Part shown: positions 1,700 through 43,056 of the stretch, in pieces
Position numbering within the stretch: the first letter of the stretch is position 1
How the letters are laid out: each line of letters starts with the position of its first letter
Source: Thermoprotei archaeon
Lineage (GTDB): Archaea; Thermoproteota; Thermoprotei; QMSL01; B3-G16
DNA: 64,000 nt
NCBI GenBank assembly: GCA_021162845.1
Contig: JAGGXX010000050.1
Span: 1 to 64,000 of the forward strand
Direction of reading: 5' to 3'
The notes under the pieces: model-generated
The model's input: only the letters and a program-made list of their open reading frames with translations
Database searches by the model: none
What the model was told of the DNA's origin: nothing
Made by a program: the position numbers and the translations under genes

Positions 1700-1827
1700 A
1701 GACCCATCTTATTACTCATTCGTAAAGTCGCCCAGGGGCCTTAAGCCAGCAGCCCCATGTCATTCGGAATGAGAGCGCATGCATGCCTCACGAAACAGTT
1801 TCATTTTTCGTAGGCATTCATAGATGT
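1700..1827 (-). other. Structured 3' flank of the tnpB-like gene, possible guide-RNA region
   Basis: Immediately downstream of the tnpB-like stop codon (reading the minus strand) there are several small inverted repeats packed into about 110 bases. They are GAAAC-A-GTTTC (1792-1802), TCATTC-G-GAATGA (1760-1772), a GGGGC/GCCCC hairpin near 1735-1757 and a palindromic GCATGC. TnpB elements commonly carry a structured guide RNA (omega RNA) overlapping or following the 3' end of tnpB. The position and folding potential fit, but no sequence match can be claimed. Confidence 0.3.
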
Positions 1828-2835
1828 TCATAGGTTTAGGTACCTAACGGCTAGCAGATAAGCTGATGTTGTATGGATGTCTAAGCCAAGTTTCTTAGCT
1901 AATGGGATGGCATCTATAGATGCATATGCTGGGTTGACAAAGTGTAGCCTTCCACCATGCTTTGGAGCTAATATCTTTAAATGCTCAATATATTCCCTTA
2001 GAGCGAATTTAGCAATCTTCCTATTAGCACTTTTAGAGAGAGTTTTTGTTCTCGGCTTACTAAGCTTCTCAGCTACATAATCAGTTACTCCGTGATGATG
2101 AGCGTAGCTGACTAACCTCGCTAAAGCCTTCATCCTAATGTCCTTCGCTTTTTCTTTTGGAAATCCATGAGAGGTAACTTCTGGAAAATGCTCAGTCTTA
2201 ACATCCAGTAAGTCGCCATCTCTACTAACGATTACCATGCATATCCTATCCGAGTTGAAGTCGAAGCTAGCTACATGACCTCTAGAATTATGGTGTCTAG
2301 ATGTTTTGCTTAGATGTTTAACGTAAAGCCCTAGGGGGACATTAACATGTAATTCTATTCTACCATTCTTAAGGTATATTCCTGCTCCATAGGGAAACTG
2401 AGCGTTTACCAGCTCTTTTACGACCTCTAGGTATCTGCTCCCAAACCTTACCTTAGCTACTATCCATCTATGTCGTCCCGTTGATGAAGGGATTTTTATT
2501 TTAACAGTATCTGCCGATACAAGTCTAATATTCCTGTTTCCCTTCTCGTTTCCCTTACCTACTGAGAATAGCTGTGGCTTTTTGAGCTTGAGGTATGCCT
2601 GACCTTTGTAGAGTCTCGCTCTCATAAGTGCGGAATGCGAGTAATGTGCATTATTAAGTATCCTTGATGTCAGCAATCTAACAATTTGAGCGTCAGAATA
2701 GCCGTTCCTCATTAATGAGTGTGCATACTCTATAGCATCCTTAAAGTTCCTCATAACGTATAGAAGGAGTCCTCTATCGGTTGGAGAGTTCACTATGAGT
2801 CTGCCTTTGACTGTTGGTTTCACTTCCTTTTCCAT
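1828..2835 (-). CDS. tnpB: TnpB-related RuvC-fold nuclease (IS200/IS605-type accessory protein)
   Basis: 335 residues with the RuvC-like triad in the expected order: RuvC-I aspartate in VASFDFNSD (D192), RuvC-II glutamate in DYVAEKLSKPRT (E256) and RuvC-III aspartate in GLDIHTTSAYLLAVRYL (D319). Canonical TnpB proteins carry a CxxC...CxxC zinc ribbon between RuvC-II and RuvC-III. This protein has none and is shorter, like the archaeal TnpB-related subgroup with an 'HTxSAY' RuvC-III. The N-terminal 180 residues are basic and alpha/beta, as in the RNA/DNA-binding wedge region. No tnpA is present. The start overlaps the end of an AbrB-like gene by 16 bases, so the two are translationally coupled. 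It may be a mobile-element nuclease or a domesticated one; all three acidic residues remain, so activity is plausible. Confidence 0.8.
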   Translation of the reverse strand: MEKEVKPTVKGRLIVNSPTDRGLLLYVMRNFKDAIEYAHSLMRNGYSDAQIVRLLTSRILNNAHYSHSALMRARLYKGQAYLKLKKPQLFSVGKGNEKGNRNIRLVSADTVKIKIPSSTGRHRWIVAKVRFGSRYLEVVKELVNAQFPYGAGIYLKNGRIELHVNVPLGLYVKHLSKTSRHHNSRGHVASFDFNSDRICMVIVSRDGDLLDVKTEHFPEVTSHGFPKEKAKDIRMKALARLVSYAHHHGVTDYVAEKLSKPRTKTLSKSANRKIAKFALREYIEHLKILAPKHGGRLHFVNPAYASIDAIPLAKKLGLDIHTTSAYLLAVRYLNL

Positions 2836-2978
2836 TTTTCAACCACCATCCTGTTTTTTGCCTCGTCGTAGTAGACAACTAGCTTATCTCCCTCTTTTAA
2901 CCCCATTCTTTCAGCGACCTCCTTAGGTATGGTCATCCGCATCTTAGGCAGTACCCTATAGACACCTATCAACTCCAT
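2820..2978 (-). CDS. Small AbrB/SpoVT-fold DNA-binding protein upstream of tnpB
   Basis: A 52-residue ORF, too short for standard ORF filters: MELIGVYRVLPKMRMTIPKE, followed by a VAERMGLKEGDKLVVYYDEA-like swapped-hairpin pattern. The arrangement (short strand, R-MTIPKEV, GLKEGDKL, terminal strand) is that of AbrB/MazE-type dimeric DNA-binding domains, found in transition-state regulators and antitoxins. The ATG at 2976-2978 sits about 20 bases downstream of a TATATAAG box, so the mRNA is probably leaderless. The stop lies inside the tnpB-like start region (16-base overlap). It most likely represses its own promoter and thereby tnpB. An antitoxin role would need a toxin partner, and none of the usual toxins (VapC, MazF) is present. 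Confidence 0.75.
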   Translation of the reverse strand: MELIGVYRVLPKMRMTIPKEVAERMGLKEGDKLVVYYDEAKNRMVVEKWKRK

Positions 2979-2992
2979 AGTAACCCTAGAAA

Positions 2993-3018
2993 CACTTATA
3001 TACCTCTAAACTTATAAA
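2993..3018 (-). promoter_or_regulatory. Promoter of the abrB-tnpB operon
   Basis: On the minus strand the sequence reads TTTATAAGTTTAGAGGTATATAAG. The TATATAAG box (complement of 2995-3002) is centred about 20-25 bases from the abrB ATG, the spacing seen in leaderless archaeal transcripts. A second TTATAAG lies 12-15 bases further upstream. Confidence 0.55.
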
Positions 3019-3031
3019 CTTATTGGATAAT

Positions 3032-3193
3032 CGACTCCGATGATGAGGGCGAGGGGGATGAGCCTAGGTGAATCCAAGTTCGATGAGGGGAGTTGGGATT
3101 AAAAATGACCAGCTCCCGCAGTCGGGCTTGGAGGATGAAATGGGTAATGAATGCTTACGTAGGTCTATCATCACCTACGTAGGTAGGAACCCT
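3032..3193 (+). repeat. Structured repeat, copy A (two-copy RNA-like element)
   Basis: This segment aligns end to end with 42581-42739. Shared blocks in order are CGAYTCCGATGA, a GAGG..GATGA block, TCGMTGAGG..AGTT, ATGAC, GGAGATGAA-like, GGTAATGAAT, an inverted repeat, and TAGGAACCC. The inverted repeat here is TTACGTAGGT / ACCTACGTAG around the loop CTATCATC. In copy B the stem sequence differs but pairing is kept, so base changes are compensatory. The element ends sharply after TAGGAACCC, where similarity stops. It may be a non-coding RNA or the 3' scaffold of a TnpB-type guide RNA left by a lost insertion. It lies just upstream of, and opposite to, the abrB-tnpB operon. Confidence 0.65.
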
Positions 3194-3478
3194 TGTTCGA
3201 AGATATCTATCCTTAAACTATATAATCTCTAAGGAATTAGTTAGTGAGCGTTCGAGCTTGAAGAGGCCCATGACGTAAGCCCAGCTAGACACCTGCTAAG
3301 GATCTAAGCTCATAGCGCTTATCGGTAAGCGGAAAAGGAATTATCACATGCTCTGAAAATGACTTCAAGGGACGAGCCCGATAGCCAGGGATCTCCTTGG
3401 GCACAGGTTCCTCACCCGGAGGTTGATGAAAACTTAATTACGTATCCCGAATGATAGAAATGTTTTGGGACTGAAATA
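3194..3478. other. Gene-free spacer ahead of the fucosidase
   Basis: No open frame of substance or RNA gene could be recognised. An AT-rich tract at about 3208-3240 and a second one at about 3430-3445 (AACTTAATTACG) could be promoters. The latter is well placed for the fucosidase gene starting at 3479. Confidence 0.35.
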
Positions 3479-4666
3479 ATGAGTGAAAATAGAATTAAAT
3501 GGTTTAGGGAAGCGCGTTTTGGGATGTTCATCCACTGGGGTCTCTATGCGATTCTTGCAAGGGCGGAGTGGGTCATGTACTTAGAGCGCATACCTAGGGA
3601 TGAGTACGCTAAGCTTGCTGAGAAGTTTAAGCCCGATAAGTTTGATGCAGACGAATGGGTCGAGATGGCCAAAAGGGCCGGTATGAAGTACATGGTTCTA
3701 ACGACAAGGCACCATGATGGCTTTAGCCTTTTTGACAGCAAACACTCGGACTTCACCTCAGCGAAGACTGCTGCTAAACGTGACCTCGTGGCTGAATACG
3801 TAGATGCCTGTCGAAGGGCTGGCATGAGAATAGGCTTTTACTACTCGCTATTAGACTGGCGTTGGGATGCATATTGGAAAGGACCCAAGGGAGATCCGGA
3901 AGGGTGGGCTAGATTCCTAGAATATGTACATGGACAGGTCGAGGAGTTATGTACGAACTACGGCAAGATAGATATCCTGTGGTACGATGGGGCATGGCCT
4001 TACTCCGCGGAGGACTGGAGGTCTGAGGAGCTCAACGCAAAGGTCCGAAAGCTTCAACCCGAAATCTTGATAAATAACCGCTCAGGTGTGCCAGGAGACT
4101 TCGAAACCCCTGAACAACATATTCCATGGTGGAGGCCACCTGCCAGGCCATGGGAAACTTGTATCACCATGAACGACAGCTGGGGTTACTTCGAGGCGGA
4201 CAGGAACTGGAAGACGCCTAAGCAGTTGATAGAGGTCCTAGTGACATGCGTCAGTCTAGGAGGGAACCTCCTACTTAACGTAGGACCTAGGGCGGATGGA
4301 ACCTTCCCGCCCGAGGCAGTGGAGATACTATCCGAGATAGGGAAGTGGATGAGGGCCCATGGTGAATCCATCTACGGCGCTGGCCCCTGTCCCTTTACCA
4401 CGACGGTGGGTAGGGTGACAGCTAAGGCCAACAAGGCTTATGTCCATGCGTTCCGCTGGCCTGGTAAGGAGATATGCGTAGCTGGTGTTGGCAATACGGT
4501 ATGCTCAGCCTATATACTGTCTACAGGAGAGGAAGTACGTGTGGTTCAGGAAGGCGATAGGGTCTTCTTAAAGGGCTTACCTAGGCTGGCGCCAGACCCA
4601 TATGATACAGTGATAGTGATGGAGCTTGATGATGAGCCTAAGGGCGTGCCCTACACCCCTCGCTGA
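3479..4666 (+). CDS. GH29 alpha-L-fucosidase
   Basis: 395 residues, an intracellular-looking enzyme (no signal peptide) that releases terminal alpha-L-fucose by a retaining mechanism. Family GH29 signatures are clear: WFREARFGMFIHWGLYA at the N-terminus, the substrate-binding TTRHHDGF (H78-H79), YYSLLDW, and the nucleophile aspartate D170 in KIDILWYDGAWP. The WGYF and NLLLNVGPRADGTFP blocks close the barrel. A short beta-rich C-terminal domain follows (about residues 300-390). The acid/base is poorly conserved in GH29 and cannot be assigned by eye. The gene precedes an HpcH-type aldolase and a multidomain ADP-ribosylglycohydrolase-fold protein, all on the plus strand with gaps of 67-230 bases, consistent with a fucoside or deoxy-sugar utilisation locus. 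Confidence 0.92.
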   Translation: MSENRIKWFREARFGMFIHWGLYAILARAEWVMYLERIPRDEYAKLAEKFKPDKFDADEWVEMAKRAGMKYMVLTTRHHDGFSLFDSKHSDFTSAKTAAKRDLVAEYVDACRRAGMRIGFYYSLLDWRWDAYWKGPKGDPEGWARFLEYVHGQVEELCTNYGKIDILWYDGAWPYSAEDWRSEELNAKVRKLQPEILINNRSGVPGDFETPEQHIPWWRPPARPWETCITMNDSWGYFEADRNWKTPKQLIEVLVTCVSLGGNLLLNVGPRADGTFPPEAVEILSEIGKWMRAHGESIYGAGPCPFTTTVGRVTAKANKAYVHAFRWPGKEICVAGVGNTVCSAYILSTGEEVRVVQEGDRVFLKGLPRLAPDPYDTVIVMELDDEPKGVPYTPR

Positions 4667-42472: not shown

Positions 42473-42580
42473 CAGAAAGAGGATTAGAAGGAATGACAAC
42501 GATAAAGATTTCGCGAGTCACCATGGGGGCAGAAACGTTAGACTATAGCTTTTCATGACCATGGATGCAGTTAGAGGATT

Positions 42581-42739
42581 CGATTCCGATGAGGGTTGAG
42601 GAGATGAATCTTGGATGTGTCTCCATGTCGCTGAGGCTAGTTAGGAAATGGATGACTGGCTGGCGTAGGAGGCATGGAGATGAAACTCGGGTAATGAATA
42701 TCTACGTAAGACTATGAACGCTTACGTAGATAGGAACCC
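42581..42739 (+). repeat. Structured repeat, copy B (two-copy RNA-like element)
   Basis: Second copy of the element at 3032-3193, same strand and nearly the same length. The terminal hairpin is ATCTACGTAAG / CTTACGTAGAT around ACTATGAACG, an 11-base perfect stem whose sequence differs from copy A while keeping the TACGTA core and pairing. It is followed by the same TAGGAACCC, after which the copies diverge. This copy also keeps a 50-codon open frame (RVEEMNLGCVSMSLRL... ending VMNIYVRL at about 42711) that copy A interrupts. That is compatible with the 3' tail of a lost tnpB whose guide RNA overlaps its coding end. Confidence 0.65.
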
Positions 42740-43056
42740 TAGATAGCATCCCATTTCATATAGCCTAGCTTATAGATAAACGGGCCTTGGATCACAGAGC
42801 TAAATAGTTCCTCGGTAACTTCCTCTCCTAAAACTAATCTGGCTATCCTTAGCACGTTTTCTAAGGTCGGATCCCTCCTAACCCTCCTCACGACCGACTT
42901 TAGCTCTGGGTGTTCATAGACGAGCATTCTAGCTAGCTCCGCGAAAACCTTTCTCCCCTCAGAATTCAGTATATCGTTATAGAAGTACTCTCTATAACCC
43001 AAGATCAGTTTTTTGAGGAGAGACTTCACGTCGGGGCCGAAGGTAAGGCGGGTCAT
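42739..43056 (-). CDS. Conserved-looking helical protein, unknown
   Basis: 105 residues, predicted mostly helical and charged (SLLKKLILGYREYFYNDILN, VRRDPTLENVLRIARLVLGE), with no cysteines, membrane segment or known motif. Codon use is like its neighbours, which supports a real gene. The stop sits at the end of repeat copy B. It precedes the AF1577-like radical SAM gene by about 270 bases and follows the Cren7-like gene. Its size would allow a substrate or partner role for the radical SAM protein, but nothing shows that. Confidence 0.55.
   Translation of the reverse strand: MTRLTFGPDVKSLLKKLILGYREYFYNDILNSEGRKVFAELARMLVYEHPELKSVVRRVRRDPTLENVLRIARLVLGEEVTEELFSSVIQGPFIYKLGYMKWDAI

Follow-up and report, generated by a model that had tools for sequence, protein, structure and literature searches.

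A structured archaeal RNA divergent to a compact TnpB-like gene, probably a guide RNA, in a mobile element with inverted tnpB

An ordinary TnpB element carries its RNA on the tnpB strand, either as the 3′ end of the tnpB transcript or immediately downstream of the gene. Several described systems resemble the locus that we report here. The IS607 elements ISXfa1 and ISFba1 (PMC10711439, PMC11061315), with their TnpB and reRNA, share with it a RuvC effector, an RNA whose 3′ end is at the right end of the element, the architecture of the 3′ module and, in one group, GG-type ends together with a GGG motif. TnpB of ISXfa1 recognizes GGG, crossover of the element takes place at GG, and the RNA scaffold includes the flanking base (PMC10711439). 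The IS607 RNA lies downstream of tnpB, whereas here tnpB is inverted and the RNA appears to have its own promoter; the unit also includes a small DNA-binding gene and lacks tnpA, and the protein has no zinc ribbon. SisTnpB1 of Sulfolobus, of the IS200/IS605 type, is also an archaeal TnpB element with a conserved right-end RNA and a variable guide-like flank, but its omegaRNA gene is at the 3′ end of tnpB, its motif is of the TTTAA type, and its transposase is Y1 rather than serine (PMC10640517). Stand-alone, promoter-driven RNAs occur in S. solfataricus, where the RNA-257 family goes back to the 3′-terminal part of a tnpB of IS607 type (ISC1904); unlike the RNA described here, its members are what is left, in sense orientation, of a canonical element, and an antisense role has been proposed for them (PMC3674436).

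We analyzed a 64,000-nt window (positions 1 to 64,000 of contig JAGGXX010000050.1 from a Thermoprotei archaeon), in which a preliminary description had picked out two similar structured segments, here called A and B (Table 1). As stated there, the segments align over their full length, with a common stop after TAGGAACCC(T); the B unit proved one base longer, extending to 42740. When the organism's own genome was searched by blastn, only A and B rose above background; in related genomes, copies were detected in 7 of 61 (own genome counted). A covariance model built from 13 copies (R1, whose E-values are rough) gave 69 matches in 14 of the 61 genomes, with a maximum of 19 in one genome and four in the window's own (two on C30, one each on C4 and C62). 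Since relatives of the two segments recur in both searches, their likeness is not due to chance. None of 200 dinucleotide shuffles equaled the fold energy of either copy.

Table 1. Features of elements A and B in the window
Feature	Positions	Strand	Basis
Left end of element A (GCCTCACGAAACAGTTTCATTTTTCG...), adjoining tnpB stop	1785..1827	+	Alignment with left ends of related units; putative boundary taken from the alignment
TnpB-like protein, 335 aa, RuvC D192/E256/D319, without zinc ribbon	1828..2835	-	TIGR01766 E 3e-9; invariant triad; model pLDDT 88 matching Cas12f/TnpB structures
AbrB/MazE-like DNA-binding ORF, 52 aa, overlapping tnpB start	2820..2978	-	ORF; PF04014 E 9.8e-10
TATA-like boxes of putative RNA promoter (TTATAT at 2996, TTATAA at 3012)	2996..3017	+	TTATAW at most 55 nt upstream in 25/31 units
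RNA gene copy A	3032..3193	+	R1 149.7 bits, E 2.4e-39 (A is a member of the R1 model); fold z -4.8
3′ module of A, the right end (closing helix GGGT/ACCC, AUGA loop, free hairpin)	3142..3193	+	Architecture as in canonical IS607 tnpB 3′ end in G035
Putative guide of A (flanking DNA)	3194..3213	+	Sequence varies from copy to copy; exact match in own genome is itself only
Left-end-like sequence of element B (GGGGGCAGAAACGTTAGACTATAG...)	42525..42560	+	Position; similar to left ends found in other units and in IS607 elements
RNA gene copy B, RNA-only derivative without tnpB or TATA-like box	42581..42740	+	R1 131.1 bits (B is a member of the R1 model); fold z -6.0
Putative guide of B (flanking DNA)	42741..42760	+	Position only

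The 5′ part of the RNA is a small helix followed by a long two-part stem (UCCAAGUUCGA...GGGAGU / GCUCCC...UCGGGCUUGGA in A). The 3′ module comprises a closing helix, a 6-nt loop that contains AUGA, a hairpin whose sequence is free, and a short side of 3 nt. The preliminary description held that the 3′ hairpin pairs in both copies despite its different sequence; it does, and the closing helix covaries as well, being GGGU/ACCC in the window copies and CCG/CGG in others. Among 56 model-aligned copies, two-sided compensatory changes were found at 32 of 34 pairs. Compensatory cells numbered 446, versus a mean of 130 after shuffling and at most 97 when the partner was slid, and 93.6% of pairing cells were paired, versus 66% and at most 50%, respectively; this alignment was fitted to R1 and is therefore biased towards the model. 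An earlier, plain MAFFT alignment gave two-sided changes in 18 of the 34 pairs. A and B are homologous, highly structured RNAs, and the earlier suggestion of a non-coding RNA family, for which a covariance search of related genomes had been proposed, holds. Beyond the closing helix the sequence is different at each copy, so that, as in omegaRNA/reRNA, the RNA 3′ end falls at the transposon right end and is followed by variable sequence. A search of the own genome with the putative guide of A returned the site itself and two matches with three mismatches, equal to the control.

To place the RNA in context, GTDB genomes were scanned by pattern and by tblastn for relatives of the neighboring 335-aa protein, giving 80 loci, many of them from metagenome-assembled genomes. 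At most of these, R1 located the RNA on the minus strand, directly upstream of a plus-strand tnpB; L153, with an additional copy on the plus strand, and L144, with two weak additional matches, were the exceptions to this layout. The RNA was detected at 49 of the 66 loci with at least 450 nt of upstream sequence. The canonical TnpB arrangement, in which the guide RNA gene follows tnpB on its own strand, was not what we observed: of 42 loci that were fetched independently and encode a protein with a complete N terminus, 38 have the RNA 5′ and divergent. The gap between RNA and tnpB is 125–288 nt (median 202). Loci with both RNA and tnpB range over Thermoproteota, Baldrarchaeota, Odinarchaeota, and Bathyarchaeota, and an Archaeoglobales locus (L130) has a 16-bit R1 match at the expected position. 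When the 61 genomes were searched independently with the 335-aa protein, its closest relatives proved to adjoin RNA copies. One earlier reading had made A and B the guide-RNA 3′ ends of vanished TnpB elements and advised looking for tnpB directly 5′ of other copies. The guide part of that reading has gained strong indirect support, and the gene does lie 5′, but divergently, on the other strand; for A it has not vanished, being 196 nt away behind the AbrB-like ORF. Because it is on the opposite strand, it would escape a search confined to the region directly 5′ on the RNA's own strand. We consider it highly probable that the locus is a TnpB/omegaRNA system with an inverted tnpB and an RNA transcribed from its own promoter, moved by IS607-type transposases.

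The 335-aa protein is predicted to have a TnpB/Cas12f fold with intact active-site residues. Its RuvC D-E-D residues are invariant in 35 sequences. The AlphaFold2 model matches Cas12f, Cas12k, and TnpB structures, the closest solved fold being Cas12f 8j12 (E 1.9e-9, identity about 10%). Among NCBIfam models, TIGR01766 scored above and NF040570 below its cut-off; the Pfam TNB domain gave a weak match in 1 of 16 members. No CxxC pairs of a zinc ribbon were found between RuvC-II and RuvC-III in the protein alignment. Cas12f of type V-F CRISPR systems is likewise a small RuvC effector with a structured guide RNA (a role that is putative here), but differs in its zinc ribbon and in most of its sequence. 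A deeper branch of ~375-aa proteins (L047, L048, L073, L186, L187, and L194), with ~28% identity to the window protein, has a divergent RNA in some members; none was detected in L047.

The units are mobile. In the complete genome G035, two are 98% identical over 1.4 kb in unrelated flanks, and a third, 78% identical, interrupts a conserved gene whose uninterrupted form in six relatives provides six empty sites. The empty site reads AAGTCTGGGGGTGAGGTTTTTCAG and the filled site AAGTCTGGGG-CTGTATTC...GGGCGAGCGG-TGAGGTTTTTCAG. One end of this unit is near the tnpB stop and the other is the RNA 3′ end; the insertion is clean, with no long target duplication. The filled left flank has four Gs versus five in the empty sites, so the exact crossover is ambiguous. 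Immediately before the guide-like sequence, the empty site has a run of Gs and the filled right end has CGG; given the ISXfa1 parallel, this would fit a nuclease that cleaves the site when empty but not when filled. For L082, no orthologous empty site was found in nine relatives. In the window-type group, the left boundary is the one that the alignment of related units suggests. The last of the earlier readings, an insertion-sequence end, was also apt, and the three amount to one thing: an RNA gene that ends at the right end of a mobile element.

No tnpA (serine transposase) was found inside the units. Resolvase-type genes were present in all seven genomes checked, several with an IS607-type N-terminal HTH, while Y1 transposases were not detected in four draft genomes with many copies (G003, G040, G056, and G046), so that IS607-type mobilization is preferred to that of the IS200/IS605 (Y1) type. 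The left-end motif GGG(N)AGAAA occurs at most 110 nt upstream of IS607-type tnpA in 5 of 7 cases (0.09 expected) and at 10 of 40 units (0.7 expected). This motif, the clean insertion, and the right end of unit L143, which is 77% identical over 69 nt to that of a canonical IS607 element in the window's own genome (G000:C22; E 1.3e-5), are IS607-like. That canonical element (L247 1784-3725) has tnpA and a zinc-ribbon tnpB. On canonical IS607 loci, R1 gave only chance-level scores, though the 3′ module of the RNA has the same architecture as the canonical IS607 tnpB 3′ end in G035. Most likely, then, movement is catalyzed in trans by IS607-type serine transposases.

A small ORF lies between RNA and tnpB in all 32 units examined; it is typically 43–60 aa long and is degenerate in L171. 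An AbrB/MazE-like type (Pfam E 1e-9 and 2e-11) is present in the window and its near relatives; other clades have what looks like a ribbon-helix-helix or a different AbrB type, for which Pfam support is not significant. Among units L120–L171, one small DNA-binding type (AbrB-like) is swapped for another (ribbon-helix-helix-like) at the same place. This replacement of one DNA-binding type by another suggests that the small ORF controls the divergent promoter. Upstream of the RNA, the TTATAW box occurs in 25 units where shuffles predict 4.2, mostly at 32–40 nt; A has such a box, and no TATA match or recognizable promoter was found upstream of B. The small DNA-binding partner and the RNA's own promoter would also suit a domesticated RNA-guided regulator, in which the TnpB-like protein and its RNA would regulate host genes by binding alone, without cleavage, in the manner of TldR, and nuclease-dead TnpB relatives such as TldR do exist (PMC13418256). 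We nevertheless regard such a regulator as improbable: the catalytic triad is invariant, and mobile units with variable guides are a poor fit with a fixed host target.

Some copies consist of the RNA without its neighbors. In G040, which has 19 RNA matches versus 3 protein matches, RNA-only copies join the left end (full unit in C80, positions 2225 to ~2290) to the RNA (3461-3650), with regulator and tnpB missing. Copy B is a deletion derivative of the same layout, left end plus RNA. The stop codon of a 105-aa ORF without family matches (42739-43056, minus strand) precisely coincides with the right edge of element B, and the insertion may thus have changed the end of this ORF. In the protein tree, end types are mixed, the window, L120, and L123 sharing GGG-CCC ends with a separate clade, L126–L131. 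The end type common to these two TnpB clades has GCCT on the left and ACCCT on the right. From this mixing, transposon ends appear to have been exchanged independently of the nuclease, with the RNA helices kept. Exchange of ends between TnpB clades, and the coincidence of the 3′ hairpin with the right end of the element, would be compatible with a structure that serves solely as a DNA transposon end, its hairpins bound by transposase, with no RNA function. We give this little credence, since structure and covariation extend over ~160 nt, well past the terminal hairpin, the RNA-only copies keep the whole RNA and not the terminal hairpin alone, a promoter-like box stands at a fixed distance, and a relative, Sso133, is catalogued as an sRNA.

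The preliminary description knew of no named RNA with this pattern, but Sso133 (Rfam RF02814) turned out to be a distant relative. Its 73-nt model covers only part of the RNA, being homologous to its middle, and scored 27.1 bits (A) and 19.1 bits (B), both below the gathering threshold of 44 bits. No known Rfam riboswitch or ribozyme reached threshold, and C/D-box sRNAs gave sub-threshold matches only. A search of the phylum with RF02814 found strong members (several >90 bits) in other families, probably including Sulfolobaceae. Sso133 was described without a link to TnpB, and we found no literature making one; here, however, the RNA is divergent to a TnpB-like gene, and Sso133 relatives that pass the RF02814 threshold in other genomes share this context, lying divergent to the same protein family in L231, L232, L233, L235, and L243. 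By this shared position and by sequence homology, Sso133 belongs to the same superfamily, and this catalogued archaeal sRNA is part of the divergent TnpB system. A C/D-box-like or antisense regulatory RNA functionally unrelated to the TnpB-like gene is scarcely credible, for although GAUGA motifs resemble C boxes (weak matches) and RNA-257 is a transposon-derived RNA able to act antisense (PMC3674436), no C/D-box family reaches threshold and the divergent linkage to one protein family is fixed across several phyla.

We therefore return to the TnpB/omegaRNA system with inverted architecture. In it, a hypercompact TnpB-like nuclease would use the RNA as its guide (omegaRNA/reRNA). The RNA would be expressed from its own promoter in one direction, and tnpB, together with the gene for the small DNA-binding protein of AbrB-like or ribbon-helix-helix-like type, in the other. 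The unit would be bounded by a left end beside the tnpB stop and a right end that is the RNA's own 3′ hairpin, and transcription through the right end would copy flanking DNA as guide. Together, RNA and nuclease would cleave chromosomes in which the element is absent from that site (GGG motif plus guide, in the CGG-ended group), helping the element to persist, while IS607-type serine transposases would move it in trans. RNA-only derivatives such as B may use the nuclease in trans, or they may be relics. In this scheme the guide function, RNA–protein binding, cleavage, the role of the regulator, and the transposase are what we infer. Counting against it are the lack of the zinc ribbon that solved TnpBs have, the ambiguous crossover at the filled left flank, and the lack of a recognizable promoter at B. 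A broader proposal, to which we give slightly less than an even chance, is that these loci represent an RNA-guided nuclease class of their own, widespread in archaea, whose guide RNA and nuclease are encoded by separate divergent genes under one small regulator, and that a single zinc-ribbon-less mini-TnpB can thereby serve many dispersed RNA-only elements in trans as a scattered guide set. TnpB with an AbrB or ribbon-helix-helix partner or a divergent RNA was not described in the literature that we searched, a search to which the main TnpB census papers (PNAS 2023, Science 2021) were external; the protein branch may be known already, even if the layout is not.

On this reading, the orphan archaeal small RNA family Sso133 gains a putative function, and the usual order of tnpB followed by omegaRNA can be broken, with the two parts expressed separately. 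The family also offers RuvC effectors of ~335 aa without a zinc ribbon, from hyperthermophile lineages. Its RNA-only derivatives provide a test case for one nuclease working with many dispersed guides in trans, an arrangement that would be intermediate between transposon RNAs and CRISPR arrays.
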